Shown: one piece after another, positions 1 to 5,910 of the stretch
How the letters are laid out: each line of letters begins with the position of its first letter
Position numbering within the stretch: position 1 is the stretch's first letter
NCBI RefSeq assembly: GCF_001426225.1
Contig: NZ_LMRT01000014.1
Location: forward strand, 1,004,327-1,068,326
Origin: Allobosea sp. Leaf344
GTDB lineage: Bacteria; Pseudomonadota; Alphaproteobacteria; Rhizobiales; Beijerinckiaceae
Length of the DNA stretch: 64,000 nt
Direction of reading: 5' to 3'
Made by a program: the position numbers and the translations under genes
The notes under the pieces: model-generated
Database searches by the model: none
What the model was told of the DNA's origin: nothing
The model's input: the letters and a program-made list of their open reading frames with translations, nothing else

Positions 1-51
1 GACGATCATCCCCACGCATTGAGTCAATTGCGTGAAGGTAGCCAGACACGT

Positions 52-267
52 CTAGAGTGCGAAACCCGGCCGGGCCGCCTCGCCCGGACGCCGCGCGGCA
101 GCCGCCGCATTCAGCCTGGGCGCGCTCTGGCCGCGATCATGACCGGTCACGCAGTCATATTGCAGCATCGCCTCGAGCAAAATGGCCCGGTCCGTCTCAT
201 TGGCGGTCTCGAGCAGTTTCAGGGCGCGATGATAATCGAGAGGCGAGCGGATCGTGATCGAGCCCAT
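52..267 (-). CDS. small hypothetical protein under an EcfG-type promoter
   Basis: This encodes 71 residues that I do not recognise. The first 45 residues look helical and acidic, and the tail is rich in alanine and arginine. The ATG at 267 was chosen over an upstream start because AGGTG lies just before it and because an exact GGAAC-N16-CGTT promoter ends about 36 nt upstream, at 303-327. There is no signal peptide or membrane segment. The promoter suggests induction by the general stress response. The existence of the gene rests mainly on that promoter, so confidence is moderate. Confidence 0.5.
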   Translation of the reverse strand: MGSITIRSPLDYHRALKLLETANETDRAILLEAMLQYDCVTGHDRGQSAPRLNAAAAARRPGEAARPGFAL

Positions 268-302
268 GATGCACCTGTGCGGCGGTGAGGTCCTCCCGCG
301 CC

Positions 303-327
303 AACGCATCGCGGGCGCTTTGGTTCC
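303..327 (-). promoter_or_regulatory. EcfG-type general stress promoter (GGAAC-N16-CGTT)
   Basis: On the minus strand GGAAC (327-323) and CGTT (306-303) are separated by exactly 16 nt, which is the known alphaproteobacterial EcfG consensus. It points at the small gene starting at 267. Sequence match only. Confidence 0.65.
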
Positions 328-354
328 ATGGAATTTTACGGGGGCCGTGCAGCC

Positions 355-1386
355 CTAGGGCAGGCGGAACAGCGCTGCTTCGTCGGCCGTCTCGCGGAGC
401 CCCTTATAGGAGGCGTGGCGCAGCTTTCCGTCGCCCGTCCAGCCGCGGAAGGCGATCTCCGCCGCCAGCTTCGGCCGCACCCAGACCACGCCCTTGCGCG
501 TCATCTTCGCAGCGGGCTTGTCGGCCCTGATCCGGTCGAGACGCTGCCGCAGCGCGGTGGCCGTGGCATGGGTGAAGCCCGTGCCGACGCTGCCGACATA
601 GGCCAGCCCGTAATTGCCCTGCGCGGCGAGCAGCAGGCCGCCCATGCCGCCCAGCGCCGCCGGGGACGGCTCATAGCCGAGGATCAGGAAGGTCTCGGTC
701 TGGATGCACTTGATCTTGAGCCAGTCGCCGCCCCGGCCCGGACGATAGGGCGCGTCGCGGCGCTTCGCGATGATGCCTTCCAGCCCCAGCCGGCAGGCCT
801 GGGCGAGGAACGCCGCAGGGTCGCCCTCCACCTCCTCGCTCAGCCGGATGCCGGCGCCACCCGCTCCCGCATCGAGCTCGCCTTCTAGGATCCGCCGCCG
901 GTCGTCCTGCGGCATGCGCTGCAGGTCGTGGCCGTTGAGGTAGAGCAGGTCGAAGGCGTAGAGCACCGCCGCCCCGGCCTCGCGCCTGCCGCCCCGGCCG
1001 CCGAGCGCCGCCTGCAGGGCGCCGAAATCGGAGGCGCCGCGCGCGTCCAGCACGACCGCCTCCCCGTCGAGGATGAAGCTCGCCGCCGGCATGGCGCGCG
1101 CCGCCGCCTCGATGGTCGGGAAGCGATGCGTCCAGTCATGGCCGCCGCGCGTGATGATCCGCACCGCGTCCAGCCGCTTATGCACAGCCAGGCGATAGCC
1201 GTCCCATTTCACCTCGAAGGCCCAGTCGGGTCCCGCGGGCGGCCTCGCGCTCAGCAGGGCAAGGCAGGGCTCGACCCGATCCGGCATCGGATCGGCGAAG
1301 AGATCGACCTCGCCGGCCGGCCGGGCTCGCCCGCTGCGGACGATCTCCACGGCCGGTCCGGCGCGCAACACGCGACGCGCACACAT
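355..1386 (-). CDS. stand-alone ATP-dependent DNA ligase, LigD/LigC ligase-domain type
   Basis: This 343-residue protein is probably an ATP-dependent DNA ligase that seals nicks or breaks in the cytoplasm. The nucleotidyl-transfer motif KWDG (K60 to G63, K60 being the AMP-accepting lysine) is followed by an EGIIAKR motif IV, a WLKIKC motif V and a C-terminal OB-fold region. It lacks the nuclease and primase domains of full LigD, and no Ku gene is visible. The ATG at 1386 is preferred over a GTG at 1398 because GGAG lies about 8 nt before it and the upstream start would overlap that site. A near-EcfG promoter lies just upstream. The family is clear; a role in non-homologous end joining is inferred. 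Confidence 0.85.
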   Translation of the reverse strand: MCARRVLRAGPAVEIVRSGRARPAGEVDLFADPMPDRVEPCLALLSARPPAGPDWAFEVKWDGYRLAVHKRLDAVRIITRGGHDWTHRFPTIEAAARAMPAASFILDGEAVVLDARGASDFGALQAALGGRGGRREAGAAVLYAFDLLYLNGHDLQRMPQDDRRRILEGELDAGAGGAGIRLSEEVEGDPAAFLAQACRLGLEGIIAKRRDAPYRPGRGGDWLKIKCIQTETFLILGYEPSPAALGGMGGLLLAAQGNYGLAYVGSVGTGFTHATATALRQRLDRIRADKPAAKMTRKGVVWVRPKLAAEIAFRGWTGDGKLRHASYKGLRETADEAALFRLP

Positions 1387-1415
1387 ACGCAACTCCACAA
1401 CGCAACGGAGTCGCG

Positions 1416-1440
1416 AACCGGCGGCTGAGCGAATCGTTCC
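1416..1440 (-). promoter_or_regulatory. near-consensus EcfG promoter (GGAAC-N16-GGTT)
   Basis: On the minus strand GGAAC (1440-1436) is followed after 16 nt by GGTT (1419-1416), one mismatch from CGTT. It ends 30 nt before the preferred ligase start at 1386. Just upstream lies a 14-bp palindrome at 1451-1464 (CCGGAGGCCTCCGG). Functional status is inferred. Confidence 0.4.
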
Positions 1441-1474
1441 GTCTGCGGCGCCGGAGGCCTCCGGGCCGCGGCGC

Positions 1475-1987
1475 TCAAGACGCGGCGGAAACCCGATGCC
1501 GGGCCATGTGCTGCAGGAAATCCATCTTGCCGAGATCCAGCCCGGCCCTGCGCAGCAAAGCGTAGGCCATGGTCACGTGGAAGAAGAAATTCGGCATGAT
1601 CCAGTCGCGGATATCCTCTTCGGAGGACATCGCGAACCGCACGCCATTGGGCAAGGTGAGGTCGACGGGACGCTCGGCCGGAGCCCAATCCGTCGGGCCG
1701 GCCTGATCGAGATGGGACCGCACGGCGGCGATGCGCTCCCGGACCTCCGCGAGCGAACGATAGGTCGCCTCTTCGAGAGGCAGGGTCTTCCCGGCCACCT
1801 GGTTCAGCGCCAGGAGCACCTGGTTGAGAGCGACGCGCAGTTGCAGCTCCAGCGGGAACATGTCCTCGGCCAGCCTCTCGCCGAGCACGCCGTCGGCCAT
1901 CCCGGCCCGCTGGGCCTTGCCGATGAGATGATCGAGCGTGCCGAGCATGTCGGCGAAGCTGGCATGCGCCGCGTGAGCATAGGACAT
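1475..1987 (-). CDS. DUF1993 family protein
   Basis: A 170-residue cytoplasmic protein matching the DUF1993 family, whose members are predicted four-helix proteins of the DinB-like fold class with no settled function. Typical features are the N-terminal helix around FADMLGTLDHLIGKA and the C-terminal segment ending in a phenylalanine-rich FFFHVTMAYALLR stretch followed by KMDFL. Length fits the family. It is divergent from the small gene at 2109, so the roughly 120 bp between them probably holds both promoters. No signal peptide is seen. The family call is good but the role is unknown. Confidence 0.8.
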   Translation of the reverse strand: MSYAHAAHASFADMLGTLDHLIGKAQRAGMADGVLGERLAEDMFPLELQLRVALNQVLLALNQVAGKTLPLEEATYRSLAEVRERIAAVRSHLDQAGPTDWAPAERPVDLTLPNGVRFAMSSEEDIRDWIMPNFFFHVTMAYALLRRAGLDLGKMDFLQHMARHRVSAAS

Positions 1988-2108
1988 GGCGCCTGTTCTG
2001 GCAGAACGCGGCCTCCGGCGCCACGAAAAGCCGCCCTCGCGAGGTCACAAAATGACCACGCCGAGCGGGTCCGCTCCGAAGGTGACTCGACAAGGGAAGG
2101 ACCGTGCG

Positions 2109-2336
2109 ATGGACAAAGAGCTGGCGAAGGTGATCGCGGACTCGAACAGCGAGGCCGTCGAGCGCGCCAGGCAGGCCGCAGCCGAACCCTCCACGCTCGA
2201 CAGGATCGGCGACACCGCCACGCAGCTCGACACGCTGGACCAGATCGTCGAACTCGGCGGCGTCGTCATCAGCGGCCTGCGGGCCACCGGCGATTGTATC
2301 GCCGCCATCTGCGACGCGGTGCCGACCCTTGATTAG
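2109..2336 (+). CDS. small hypothetical protein
   Basis: A 75-residue protein not recognised from any family. The N-terminal half is charged and probably helical, and the C-terminal half is hydrophobic and glycine-rich with two cysteines near the end. The ATG at 2109 was preferred over upstream starts because AAGGGAAGG precedes it closely. It is the first of three close plus-strand genes (2109, 2367, 2753) with gaps of about 30 and 23 bp, which suggests one operon. No function is proposed. Confidence 0.55.
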   Translation: MDKELAKVIADSNSEAVERARQAAAEPSTLDRIGDTATQLDTLDQIVELGGVVISGLRATGDCIAAICDAVPTLD

Positions 2337-2366
2337 CGCAGGCCCCGCGCCCCGCGGAGTTTCGGC

Positions 2367-2729
2367 TTGAAGGCGCTTCTCGCCGGCCTCTGGGCGATGA
2401 AGGCGTCGCTGTTCGGCTTCTTCGCGGCCTTCGCAGCGAGTTTCCTGAGCTTCGGCTATGTCAGCCTCGTTCTCTACGCCCTGGTCTCGCCTGTGCTGAC
2501 GCAGCTCTATCCGCCGCTGGAAAGCTGGCGTGGCCCCTGGGTCTGGCCGGTCCTGGTCGGCGTCGCGATCCTCTGGTCCTTCAGTTTTCCGATCGCCGGT
2601 GTCGTCGATTTGCGGCTCGCTGCGACCCAGGCGTCGAAGCGAACCCGATGGCTCAGCTACCTCGCCATTCTCTGGCTCGGCGCGCTCGCATCCTGGCTCG
2701 TGGTGCTCGGGCTCAACTGGCCGGGCTAG
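2367..2729 (+). CDS. small integral membrane protein, unknown
   Basis: A 120-residue protein with about three hydrophobic segments, at residues 10-45, 58-82 and 95-118, and almost no catalytic-looking polar residues. The start is a TTG at 2367 with GGAG 8 nt upstream; an ATG at 2397 is the alternative and would shorten the first segment. It sits between two other small unknown genes with short gaps and is probably co-transcribed with them. I do not recognise the family. Confidence 0.6.
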   Translation: MKALLAGLWAMKASLFGFFAAFAASFLSFGYVSLVLYALVSPVLTQLYPPLESWRGPWVWPVLVGVAILWSFSFPIAGVVDLRLAATQASKRTRWLSYLAILWLGALASWLVVLGLNWPG

Positions 2730-2752
2730 CCGGTCGCAACAGGAGTTTTCCG

Positions 2753-3385
2753 ATGCAGATTCGACATCTCCGCGTCCTGATCGGCTCTCTGGCGCTCGTG
2801 CTCGCCTCGCCCGCGATCGCCGCACCGAAAATCGTCCTGGACTACCGCAAGCCGACCGACCAGCGACCGCCGGCCGTGACGGCCGAGATTCGCGCCATGC
2901 TCGCCGGCGCCCTGCCCGGCGAGGCGAAGGATGTCACGGTGCTGGACCATCTCCGCGGCAGTTTTTCGCAGCCGGGCTTCAGCGAGGACATCTATCTCGT
3001 CGCCGACAAGGCGCCCGTCGCCGCCCAACCCTTCGCGCAAGGGCCGGCCCAACGTCTGGTCACGATCAGGGAGGGCAGGACCACCGTCTGGAGGCTGCCC
3101 GAGGAGCTGCGCTACCAGCGCATCGCCGGCATGGTCGATGCCGACCGCGACGGCCGTAGCGAGCTTTTGCTGGAAGCCGGCTTCTACAATATGGGGCAAT
3201 CGACCGTCTCGGTCGATCACCTCGCGCTCGCCGCGAATGGGAGCGTCGCCATCCGGCACAGTCTCAAGGACGTCGTCACCGATGGCTGCGACAACCCCGT
3301 CGGCAAGCGCGAGAAGCGCGCGAGCACGATCGCGCTGGGTGATGACGGACAACTCGTGGCGAAGCCGTACAGGCAGCGATGCTGA
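2753..3385 (+). CDS. exported hypothetical protein with a DADRDG motif
   Basis: A 210-residue protein with a clear Sec signal peptide (about residues 1-23, cleaved after an AIA motif), so it is probably periplasmic. Around residue 130 it has a DADRDGRSELLLE segment like the calcium-binding loops of VCBS/FG-GAP repeats, and it has two cysteines in the last third that could form a disulfide. AGGAG lies 7 nt before the ATG. It ends the three-gene plus-strand group. Function unknown; calcium binding is only inferred from the motif. Confidence 0.65.
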   Translation: MQIRHLRVLIGSLALVLASPAIAAPKIVLDYRKPTDQRPPAVTAEIRAMLAGALPGEAKDVTVLDHLRGSFSQPGFSEDIYLVADKAPVAAQPFAQGPAQRLVTIREGRTTVWRLPEELRYQRIAGMVDADRDGRSELLLEAGFYNMGQSTVSVDHLALAANGSVAIRHSLKDVVTDGCDNPVGKREKRASTIALGDDGQLVAKPYRQRC

Positions 3386-3720
3386 TGGCTGCCCCCGGCC
3401 CCGCTCGTCGGCGTGACGCGCCGGCATCGGCGGCACCTAGATCCAGCCGGTGCGCCTGAAGCGGAGATAGAGCAGCGTGCAGACGATGGCGATCACGCCC
3501 AGCCCGATATGGTACTCATGAAGCCGGCAGGGCGTCGCCGCGAAAGCCGCTCGGGCTCTACGGCGACCGAACGGTATGGGCGGCCCGCAAAGTCGTTCCG
3601 ATGCACGGCTGATCGCCGGCTTTCCATGTCGCGCCGAGGTGACGTCGACAATTCTTTCGGCCGAGCCGCAACAATCCACCATTGCGGCAGTTGTCTTATC
3701 GGCACAACCGGAAGTTAGTC
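3386..3720. other. 335-bp gap with no confident gene
   Basis: The minus strand carries an open frame ending at 3437 whose last 28 or so codons encode a hydrophobic stretch plus a basic tail, like a tiny membrane protein, but no convincing start or ribosome site was found. The plus strand should hold the promoter of the response regulator gene at 3721, with CCGGAAG as its likely ribosome site. A GGAAC and a CGTT occur on the minus strand but 21 nt apart, which is too far for an EcfG promoter. Confidence 0.4.
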
Positions 3721-4077
3721 ATGGCAATTCTCGTCCTTGTCGTCGAAGACGAGCCCATCATCCGCATGAACGCCGTCGGCATCATCGAGGACGCCGGATA
3801 TGACGTCGTCGAGGCGTCCAACGCCGACGAGGCCATAACTCTGCTTGAGACGCGCCCGGATATCGGCGCGGTCTTCTCGGATATCGAAATGCCCGCAGGC
3901 TCCATGGACGGGCTGAAGCTGATCCAGGCGATCCGCAGGCGCTGGCCGCCCGCGACTCTCATCCTCGCCTCCGGCCGCGTGTCGCCTTCGGTGGCGGACA
4001 TGCCCCGCGACACCGTCTTCCTCAGGAAGCCCTATACCGAGGATGATCTGATCGCGGCTCTCCCCGCCGCCGCCTAA
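3721..4077 (+). CDS. single-domain response regulator (receiver only)
   Basis: A 118-residue receiver domain with no output domain. It has the acidic pocket around residues 9-11 (EDE), the phospho-acceptor D54 in VFSD, the conserved serine at 84 in LASG and the lysine K103 in RKPYTEDD. Such proteins act by protein contact or as phosphate sinks in signalling. The ATG at 3721 gives the standard receiver N-terminus. The HWE kinase gene converges on it and the two overlap by 4 bp at their 3' ends, so they probably work together, though they cannot share a message. Confidence 0.88.
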   Translation: MAILVLVVEDEPIIRMNAVGIIEDAGYDVVEASNADEAITLLETRPDIGAVFSDIEMPAGSMDGLKLIQAIRRRWPPATLILASGRVSPSVADMPRDTVFLRKPYTEDDLIAALPAAA

Positions 4078-5129
4078 TGGGCGAGCTTCGAGGCCCTGAT
4101 CCGCAGCGTCACGATCAGCCCGCCCTCGGACCAATCATAATCGATCGAGCCGCCGAGCTGGCCGGACACACTGCGTTCGACGAGGCGGCTGCCATAGCCC
4201 TTCGGCCGCTCCCCCTCCCCCACGGCCGGGCCGCCACGCTCCGTCCAGACGATCCTGATATGGTCGCCGTCATTGCCGCCGGAGATGTCGAGCTGGCCGG
4301 TGTCAGCCGACAAGGCGCCGTATTTCAGCGAGTTGGTCGCCAGCTCGTGGAAGACCAGAGCCAGCGTCGTCGCCGTCGCCTCGCCTACGCCCATGCGCGG
4401 AACGGCAACGCGGATGCGCCCGCTGAAGGCGCTCGTCTCCTCATAGGGAGACAAAAGGACAGCCACCAGATCGCCGAGCAGTGCCGCCGTCCCCTGATGT
4501 CCGGGAAGCGGGCGGACCAGATCATGCGCACGACCGAGCGCCGCCAGGCGGGCAGTCAGGTCGCTGGCCATTTCCGTGGCCGTCGTGGTGGAGCGGGACG
4601 TCAGCTGCGTCAGCCCCATCGCGATCGCCAGCAGGTTCTTGACCCGATGGCTCATCTCGCCGGCGAGGAGCTCATGGCCCTCCTCGGCCTGCTTGCGGCC
4701 CGTCACATCGAGAAAGATTCCATAGGCCAGCCCCATATGGACGGCGGCGTCGTCGCCGATGCCGCGCGCCGAGATCCAGCGGATCTCCTCTCCGACCATG
4801 ATGCGGAAATCGATCTCATAGGCGCCGACGATCGCCCGCGTGGCGACGAAGGCCGCGCGGACGCGCTCGCGGTCCAGCGGGTGAACATGCGCCGACAGGT
4901 CCTCGAACGTCACCGAGTCGCTCGGCGGCAGATTCCACAGAGCGAAGCCGTGCTCGTCCATGGCGAATTTGTCGGTCGTCACATTCCACGACCAGAGCGC
5001 GACACCCGCCGCGCTGATCGCCAGGCGCAGGCTGGTTGCGCTCCAGGCGCTCGGATTGGATTGGGGCAAGGGCTGGATGTTCCTGCGAAGCGTGAGAGTG
5101 CCGTCCGATGTATCGGAAATCGACGCCAT
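4074..5129 (-). CDS. HWE-family sensor histidine kinase with PAS domain
   Basis: A 351-residue soluble sensor kinase. Residues about 35-145 form a PAS domain ending in DVTGRKQAEE. The kinase core starts with the phospho-acceptor H161 in SHRVKNLL, followed by the N-box HELATNSLKYG and the WTERGG motif that defines HWE kinases. No membrane segment is present, so the signal is probably cytoplasmic (light, redox or a ligand). HWE kinases are frequent in Hyphomicrobiales and some feed PhyR-EcfG general stress signalling. The convergent receiver gene is the likely partner. The PAS cofactor is not deducible; the cysteine typical of LOV domains was not seen. Confidence 0.9.
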   Translation of the reverse strand: MASISDTSDGTLTLRRNIQPLPQSNPSAWSATSLRLAISAAGVALWSWNVTTDKFAMDEHGFALWNLPPSDSVTFEDLSAHVHPLDRERVRAAFVATRAIVGAYEIDFRIMVGEEIRWISARGIGDDAAVHMGLAYGIFLDVTGRKQAEEGHELLAGEMSHRVKNLLAIAMGLTQLTSRSTTTATEMASDLTARLAALGRAHDLVRPLPGHQGTAALLGDLVAVLLSPYEETSAFSGRIRVAVPRMGVGEATATTLALVFHELATNSLKYGALSADTGQLDISGGNDGDHIRIVWTERGGPAVGEGERPKGYGSRLVERSVSGQLGGSIDYDWSEGGLIVTLRIRASKLAH

Positions 5130-5308
5130 TCCCTAAGACTTTGAGGTGGAGCGCATGAGGGCGACGTGCGCCGGCGAGGAACGCGCCGAAGGCGGCTGGT
5201 CCGGGCCTGGAGATTTGCCTGCCGACATTCCTCCCCCTGAATGCTCGGAACGGGATGACCACGCCCCGGCGCCCGCACTGCACGTCGGTGCGATACCGCG
5301 TCCTGTCT

Positions 5309-5572
5309 CTATCGCAACTGGCTGTCTTTGCTGCCGCGGCGGTTATAGGCCGATGCGAAGGCAGGACGATCCTGTCGCGACTGACAGTCGACGCACAGCA
5401 CGGCGCCGGGCATCGCGACGCGCCGTGCCTCCGGAATTTCCTGGCCGCAATGCTGGCAATGCGTCTCGCCCGGGCCGGTCGGCAGTCGAGAGCGCGCGAG
5501 CCTGACGGCATCGGACACGGAATCGTCGATCTGGTCCTGAACCGCCCCGTCCGGAGCCCAACCGCTGGCCAT
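5309..5572 (-). CDS. DksA/TraR C4-type zinc-finger small protein
   Basis: An 87-residue protein of the YbiI-like DksA/TraR family. The C4 zinc finger is a CxxC pair, 17 residues, then a second CxxC (HCQHC to CVDC), and the N-terminus is a short acidic helix (residues 10-30). The long coiled coil of true DksA is missing, so RNA polymerase binding in the secondary channel is uncertain. The ATG at 5572 has AGGGAGA before it and lies 22 nt after an exact EcfG promoter (5594-5618). Expression in the general stress response is therefore likely. Confidence 0.82.
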   Translation of the reverse strand: MASGWAPDGAVQDQIDDSVSDAVRLARSRLPTGPGETHCQHCGQEIPEARRVAMPGAVLCVDCQSRQDRPAFASAYNRRGSKDSQLR

Positions 5573-5593
5573 GACAAGTCTCCCTGGCAAATC

Positions 5594-5618
5594 AACGGAA
5601 ACCGCCGCGGTCTGTTCC
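5594..5618 (-). promoter_or_regulatory. EcfG-type general stress promoter (GGAAC-N16-CGTT)
   Basis: The minus strand reads GGAAC (5618-5614), 16 nt, then CGTT (5597-5594), an exact consensus. It is placed 22 nt before the start codon of the DksA-like zinc-finger gene, a normal distance for a short leader. Confidence 0.7.
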
Positions 5619-5833
5619 CCTCTGACCGCCACACAGAGGCAGTTGCCGGTCCGCTGAAGAGTGGAGGCCAGTCCCGCGATAAGCCGCCGTCGCGGGAGCG
5701 GCGCAAACCCGACGCTCGCGAACCGCGCAGCCACCGCCTTATCGAAACGATGAATTGGTCGGTCTGTCGGAGTGGGCGGCAGCCGGCGGTGTCGCAGCGA
5801 CCTCCCGCGACCGGCCAGTCCCTGGCAAAACAA

Positions 5834-5910
5834 TGGCGAGCCCGGCTGGATTCGAACCAGCGACCAGCAGCTTAGAAGGCTGCTGCTCTATCCATCTGAG
5901 CTACGGGCCC
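5834..5910 (-). tRNA. tRNA-Arg (TCT)
   Basis: A 77-nt cloverleaf on the minus strand with acceptor arms GGGCCCG and CGGGCTC (one G-T pair), a TTCGAATCC T-loop, anticodon loop CTTCTAA giving anticodon TCT, and an encoded CCA end. It reads AGA codons. Confidence 0.95.

Follow-up and report, generated by a model that had tools for sequence, protein, structure and literature searches.

Genes and promoter-like boxes at the locus

The window analysed here, a stretch of 64,000 nucleotides from contig NZ_LMRT01000014.1 of Allobosea sp. Leaf344 (counted below among the Bosea genomes), carries near its left end a stand-alone DNA ligase gene and a zinc-finger gene, each preceded by a box of the type attributed to EcfG, the sigma factor of the general stress response. 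The ligase (355-1386, minus strand, 343 residues) is an ATP-dependent enzyme of the non-homologous end joining (NHEJ) family: it scores 313.3 bits against TIGR02779 (cut-off 227.75), possesses both the nucleotidyltransferase and the C-terminal domains (PF01068, PF04679) and contains the sequence KWDG, which we take to be the K-x-D-G nucleotidyltransferase motif. The closest solved structure is the ligase domain of Mycobacterium tuberculosis LigD (1vs0, E 5e-48, aligned residues 52-333). The second gene (5309-5572, minus strand) encodes a DksA/TraR-family C4 zinc-finger protein of 87 residues (NF008243, 126.7 bits, cut-off 96; PF01258).

The box pattern, GGAAC-N16-CGTT, was counted on both strands. 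A previous sequence-only reading had reported two exact minus-strand sites (303-327 and 5594-5618), both 22 to 36 nt before a start codon, and a one-mismatch site before the ligase gene (1416-1440). Positions and spacings were confirmed, the third site likewise being on the minus strand. With distances taken from the final base of a box to the A of the ATG, the first site lies 36 nt before the ATG (at 267) of an open reading frame (ORF) of 71 codons, the second 22 nt before the zinc-finger ATG (at 5572), and the third, with GGTT in place of CGTT, 30 nt before the ligase ATG (at 1386). The rarity of exact sites also holds, the expectation of about 0.5 in the window being conservative: 100 dinucleotide shuffles gave a mean of 0.17, and two or more sites were reached in only two of them. 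The closeness of the two sites, which had been considered remarkable within 6 kb, was instead dropped as evidence, the genome holding 20 pairs of exact sites within 5,291 bases. When one mismatch is permitted the window contains nine sites against 8.64 expected by chance, so that the ligase box is unremarkable by count alone. Its GGTT is nevertheless acceptable as a -10 word, since this word is flexible in EcfG promoters, 14 versions being listed in PMC7083833. A plus-strand one-mismatch box (1414-1438) overlaps the ligase box.

Conservation of the ligase box in Bosea

This type of ligase has a patchy distribution among 61 Bosea genomes, where it is sometimes present in several copies and often broken. 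The comparison was made on 43 copies, leaving out five of the 30 loci collected first (L065-L069, LigD-type or broken copies) and further listed ligase places. GGAAC was found within 90 nt before the start in 41 of these copies, compared with 5 of 125 intragenic windows, and the fuller form GGAAC-N16/17-NGTT occurs within the same distance in 37 of the 43 related and partly paralogous copies (33 with N16, 4 with N17), while no other spacing between N8 and N26 occurs in more than two copies. Eighteen copies were collected after the pattern had been spotted, and 12 of them show the N16 form; the box is also carried by L067, a broken copy outside the set.

The spacer between the two words is mostly variable. 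In an alignment of 21 copies, in which the pattern-defining positions are fixed by the way the copies were selected, 13 of the 16 spacer columns hold less than 0.61 bit, the exceptions including a G directly after GGAAC (21/21) and a C at box position 10 (17/21). By DNA similarity, the flanks 5' of 25 ligase copies sort into 16 groups, in one of which the flank of the window stands alone; the promoter thus appears to stay with the ligase gene amid changing surroundings. A scan of related genomes had been proposed as a check on the three boxes; for the ligase the outcome was favourable, the box being kept across Bosea in spite of its variable spacer, and the weakest-looking of the three is the one best supported by sequence comparison.

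EcfG machinery and boxes across the genome

The genome (4.35 Mb) encodes PhyR (378 bits, cut-off 240), NepR (identified by Pfam, 50.7 bits, cut-off 25.7), an adjacent extracytoplasmic function (ECF) sigma factor and a HisKA_2/HWE kinase together in a phyR-nepR-ecfG locus, around which boxes of the N16/17-CGTT form also stand. Exact boxes number 60 in the whole genome, compared with 32 for a reversed control pattern, and under a lenient placement rule 32 of the 60 precede the start of a gene, whereas in the same stretches 266 of 2304 positions picked at random (11.5%) do so. The pattern is both over-represented and promoter-placed, which supports reading it as an EcfG-type promoter. The genes behind exact boxes, named by us from sequence and not by family searches, include glycogen enzymes, a general-stress pyridoxamine-oxidase-like protein, a ferritin-like protein and exonuclease III, and look like a general stress response set.

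A symmetric form, GGAAC-N18-GTTCC, readable on both strands, was also observed (L158 9687-9714, L159 12080-12107, L160 10167-10194, L162 7135-7162, L163 8783-8810). These boxes sit between divergent ku, zinc-finger or SDR-like genes and are kept at the ku gene in several genomes; eight were counted in 18 NHEJ or zinc-finger loci, compared with 0 to 2 at other gaps. Their interpretation as bidirectional promoters was set aside, because over the 61 genomes they are hardly more frequent than the reversed control (232 vs 197).

ku, ligD and ligase loci in Bosea and beyond

Boxes of the same type accompany other NHEJ genes. In the Bosea loci a box lies within 120 nt before 12 of 13 ku ORFs, the only miss (L169) having its start cut by the end of the locus. 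In the genome under study, elsewhere on the contig that carries the ligase, an exact box lies between two divergent ku genes; GGAAC-N16-GGTT precedes a two-gene stretch formed by a small ORF and ligD (L168, 8382-11752 onward, C12), and an exact box precedes the exonuclease III-like gene. The ligD stretch continues, about 0.4 kb behind ligD, with an HWE kinase of the same cluster as that of the window.

The comparison of ligases beyond Bosea covered 80 loci among the 333 matches listed. An N16 box of the ligase's own was found in eight of the 80, six labelled Bosea and two labelled Rhizobiales with the same box as the Bosea copies. In Rhizobiaceae and relatives the orthologs lie directly behind ku, which associates this ligase with Ku: ku-tail motifs were found just 5' of the ligase, on the plus strand, in 14 cases, 12 of them with an in-frame ku start giving at least 268 residues. 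The adjoining ku is often the second of two, and no box was found before any of the 17 second ku genes examined in these families. The leading ku genes near the ligase, in contrast, carry GGAAC-N18/19-TT in 21 of 21 cases, compared with 1.6% of 130-base windows, and GGAAC-N18-TT is the form given for the RpoE2 box in PMC6011840, citing Sauviac 2007. Around the GGAAC before the first ku of this ku-ku-ligase row (L085, L088, L097 and others) a strongly conserved stretch was observed.

The zinc-finger gene

The zinc-finger protein is present in 32 of the 61 Bosea genomes, and the scan of its upstream regions gave a divided answer: a box of the form GGAAC-N16/17-N(A/G)TT is kept before 8 of 30 orthologs, whereas 12 of the 30 (e.g., L022, L023, L027) show another element instead. 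Nine of these are CTTG-N19-CCATCTT-like and three have a looser form. By eye, the former resembles the CTTG-N18-CCTATCT that precedes one groES of this genome, and an RpoH-type promoter before these 12 orthologs is likely but unproven. The occurrence of EcfG-type and RpoH-looking elements across the orthologs might reflect a change of sigma factor.

Proximity to the ligase was examined for 42 of 46 zinc-finger places against part of the ligase places, and 12 of the 42 have a ligase at a distance of 10 kb or less. Among genes with a box the figure is 6 of 8, against 2 of 22 without (p = 0.001; on short contigs some close pairs will be missed). In two genomes the genes are neighbours and each has its box, the gap being 258 bases in G019 and 471 in G018.

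The kinase-receiver pair

Between the outer boxes lie a PAS-HWE histidine kinase of 351 residues (4074-5129, minus strand; PF07536, 54.2 bits, cut-off 22.8) and, convergent with it, a single-domain receiver (3721-4077, plus strand; PF00072). Both had been recognised by the sequence-only reading, which considered the receiver a lone one; that description does not hold. A receiver of the same type lies within 800 bases of 28 of 34 other kinase copies (L283-L315), 22 times in the convergent arrangement of the window, and because the pair recurs in this way the receiver is best regarded as the partner gene of the kinase. Neither gene had an EcfG box in the scan, and a box within 150 nt before the kinase was found in none of the 34 other copies, a count that omits three repeated loci (L316-L318) and five kinase fragments that were not read. 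The kinase scores 16.7 bits against the PhyK model NF051872, far below the cut-off of 750.

The pair is patchy and multi-copy in Bosea. Of 39 other kinase places (at least 60% identity), four have a ligase piece or a zinc finger no more than 5 kb away: in G039 kinase, receiver, a DUF1993 gene and a ligase piece occur together, in G047 and G028 kinase and receiver stand with ligase pieces, and in G034 the kinase stands with the zinc finger. In the loci compared first that hold a member of the ligase cluster, a same-cluster kinase was found in one of six others (L170, with a ligase fragment). An initial view of kinase and receiver as mere bystanders was consequently revised in favour of a recurring pair that is sometimes found near ligase pieces or the zinc finger. 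The link to these two genes is suggestive, not established, as judged from gene neighbourhoods.

A probable accessory region beside tRNA-Arg

The variable stretch that holds these genes stops at a tRNA-Arg(TCT) gene (5834-5910, minus strand), a conserved edge in synteny with relatives, whose 3' end faces the variable side. The place was compared in 20 relatives around a conserved NDUS4-like gene on the right, and DNA resembling window positions 1-5820 was found there in none of them. Both flanks are visible in 15 relatives, of which 14 hold 0.1-2.1 kb and one 6.7 kb between them, against about 9 kb in this genome. No att-like repeat of the tRNA-Arg 3' end was detected in the region in this genome (the best exact match has 12 bases and lies on the other strand), and the ORFs examined included no integrase. 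In L215 a second stretch of 50 bases resembling the tRNA end (88%) was observed. Directly to the left of the window lies a gene for a methyl-accepting chemotaxis protein.

The remaining genes of the region are small. A gene for a DUF1993 protein (1475-1987, minus strand; PF09351) precedes the ligase gene in the same orientation, and its 82% relative in G039 is the one that adjoins the kinase-receiver pair and the ligase piece. Three ORFs of 75, 120 and 210 codons (2109-2336, 2367-2729 and 2753-3385, all on the plus strand) have no Pfam or NCBIfam match. The same is true of the 71-codon ORF behind the first exact box (52-267, minus strand; G+C by codon position 0.69/0.53/0.76), which may or may not be a real gene. 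It is an orphan: 60 other Bosea genomes gave a single match, weak and partial, and a further 296 genomes from the order gave none. Conservation of the ORF is thus not supported, and its box lacks close orthologs for comparison. No defence gene was matched by PADLOC among six proteins of the window.

Interpretation and alternative explanations

The observations are explained best, and in our opinion quite probably, by an accessory region in which a free-standing NHEJ ligase and a DksA/TraR-type zinc finger are controlled by EcfG as part of a genome-wide, stress-induced NHEJ regulon. The repair of broken DNA linked to this ligase would then probably be switched on together with the stress response. 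Under stress, PhyR would sequester NepR and EcfG would be released; RNA polymerase carrying EcfG would transcribe not only the ligase but also, elsewhere in the genome, ku, the ligD operon and exonuclease III; and end-joining capacity would rise when replication halts and a sister copy is lacking. The ligase could seal ends held by Ku, either as a partner of the multidomain LigD or as an alternative to it. Ligase and zinc finger would each stand behind a separate EcfG promoter, while kinase and receiver form a two-component pair that travels and has the neighbourhood, but probably not the promoter class, in common with them. We infer here the dependence on EcfG, the partnership with Ku in Bosea and the role of the zinc finger.

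Several observations weigh against this explanation. The full box is missing in 6 of the 43 ligase copies, and the 37 that have it do not come from 43 independent events, the copies being related and partly paralogous. In 22 of 30 orthologs the zinc-finger gene has no box; the second ku of this genome has only a one-mismatch version (CATT for CGTT); only three of the eight ligD ORFs in the Bosea loci have a box at the start itself; and in most Rhizobiaceae loci the ligase is without a box of its own.

The sequence-only reading had proposed a general stress response island. In the form weighed here, everything from box to box, along with the kinase and the receiver, would be a single functional unit for sensing stress and feeding PhyR. 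It is true that the gene set recurs in pieces, that HWE-class kinases feed PhyR in other species, as is generally known (see also the abstracts of PMC12148442 and PMC5898713), and that 5 of this genome's 13 HWE kinases have an exact box no more than 5 kb away, a distance that covers 11.1% of the genome, although two of the five belong to the phyR locus itself. The same-cluster kinase behind ligD points in the same direction, as do the four kinase copies near a ligase piece or zinc finger, where roughly 0.5 would be expected. However, the other 35 of the 39 copies are more than 5 kb from such genes, and accessory genes cluster regardless, which makes proximity weak evidence; with kinase and receiver unboxed here, all 34 other kinase copies likewise unboxed and the PhyK score far below its cut-off, we regard a single unit of this kind as unlikely. 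There is also a slim chance that the two exact boxes are fortuitous matches and that the ligase box is the sole promoter, considering that the reversed control still yields 32 sites in the genome, that the 71-codon ORF is an orphan and that most zinc-finger orthologs are unboxed; against this, the random placement rate would put only about four chance sites among the 32 promoter-placed ones, and boxed zinc-finger genes are the ones preferentially found near the ligase. Finally, GGAAC-like -35 words are common to several ECF groups, among them that of Escherichia coli RpoE (PMC8103513), and the ligase box might be kept for another RpoE-type ECF sigma factor with a similar -35 word. This seems very improbable, since N16/17-CGTT is the published EcfG form and occurs around phyR-nepR-ecfG in this same genome.

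Returning to EcfG control of ligase and zinc finger, a bolder version, which we hold as a doubtful extension, would consider the two genes as a travelling stress-repair module that brings its own EcfG promoters and is wired into the stress response wherever it lands, for instance beside tRNA-Arg. The zinc finger would work at breaks, alongside the repair machinery or RNA polymerase, and the Bosea ligase would have left the ku row while a private promoter kept it under stress control. Kinase and receiver may travel as well, as one more piece that adds a stress input.

If EcfG control is correct, it is not a single operon but a number of separate promoters that would couple end joining in Bosea to stress. 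Error-prone joining induced by stress is relevant to the survival of drying by soil bacteria and to their uptake of foreign DNA. That a ligase of patchy, multi-copy occurrence has kept a private promoter suggests that regulation follows the moving gene and, because the box is conserved, the regulation of the ligase can be tested directly.

Comparison with known systems

The family of the zinc finger, NF008243 (PRK11019), matches above its cut-off over all 87 residues, and an EcfG box precedes a minority of the orthologs. The ligase shares with LigD of M. tuberculosis (1vs0) the catalytic and C-terminal domains; unlike LigD, it lacks the polymerase and phosphoesterase domains. Stress control of such genes has relatives in other Alphaproteobacteria. 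In Sinorhizobium meliloti, RpoE2, a stress sigma factor of the EcfG group, reportedly drives ku and ligase genes, a situation similar to that proposed for Bosea, and its box has the form GGAAC-N18-TT cited above (PMC6011840). Control by EcfG is already known for ku-ligD in Sphingopyxis granuli TFA (PMC7083833) and for ku in Sphingomonas melonis Fr1 (PMC6599016), where, as in Bosea, the NHEJ genes stand behind GGAAC stress-response boxes. A search of PMC7719229 gave no hit for stand-alone ligases or stress sigma factors. What appears to be new here, within the literature searched, is a free-standing ligase with its own conserved box, separate from ku: in contrast to Sphingopyxis and Sphingomonas, the Bosea ligase is found away from ku, in accessory DNA of patchy occurrence, and, whereas the Rhizobiaceae have a ku-ku-ligase row with a single box at its head, Bosea has a lone ligase behind a box of its own.

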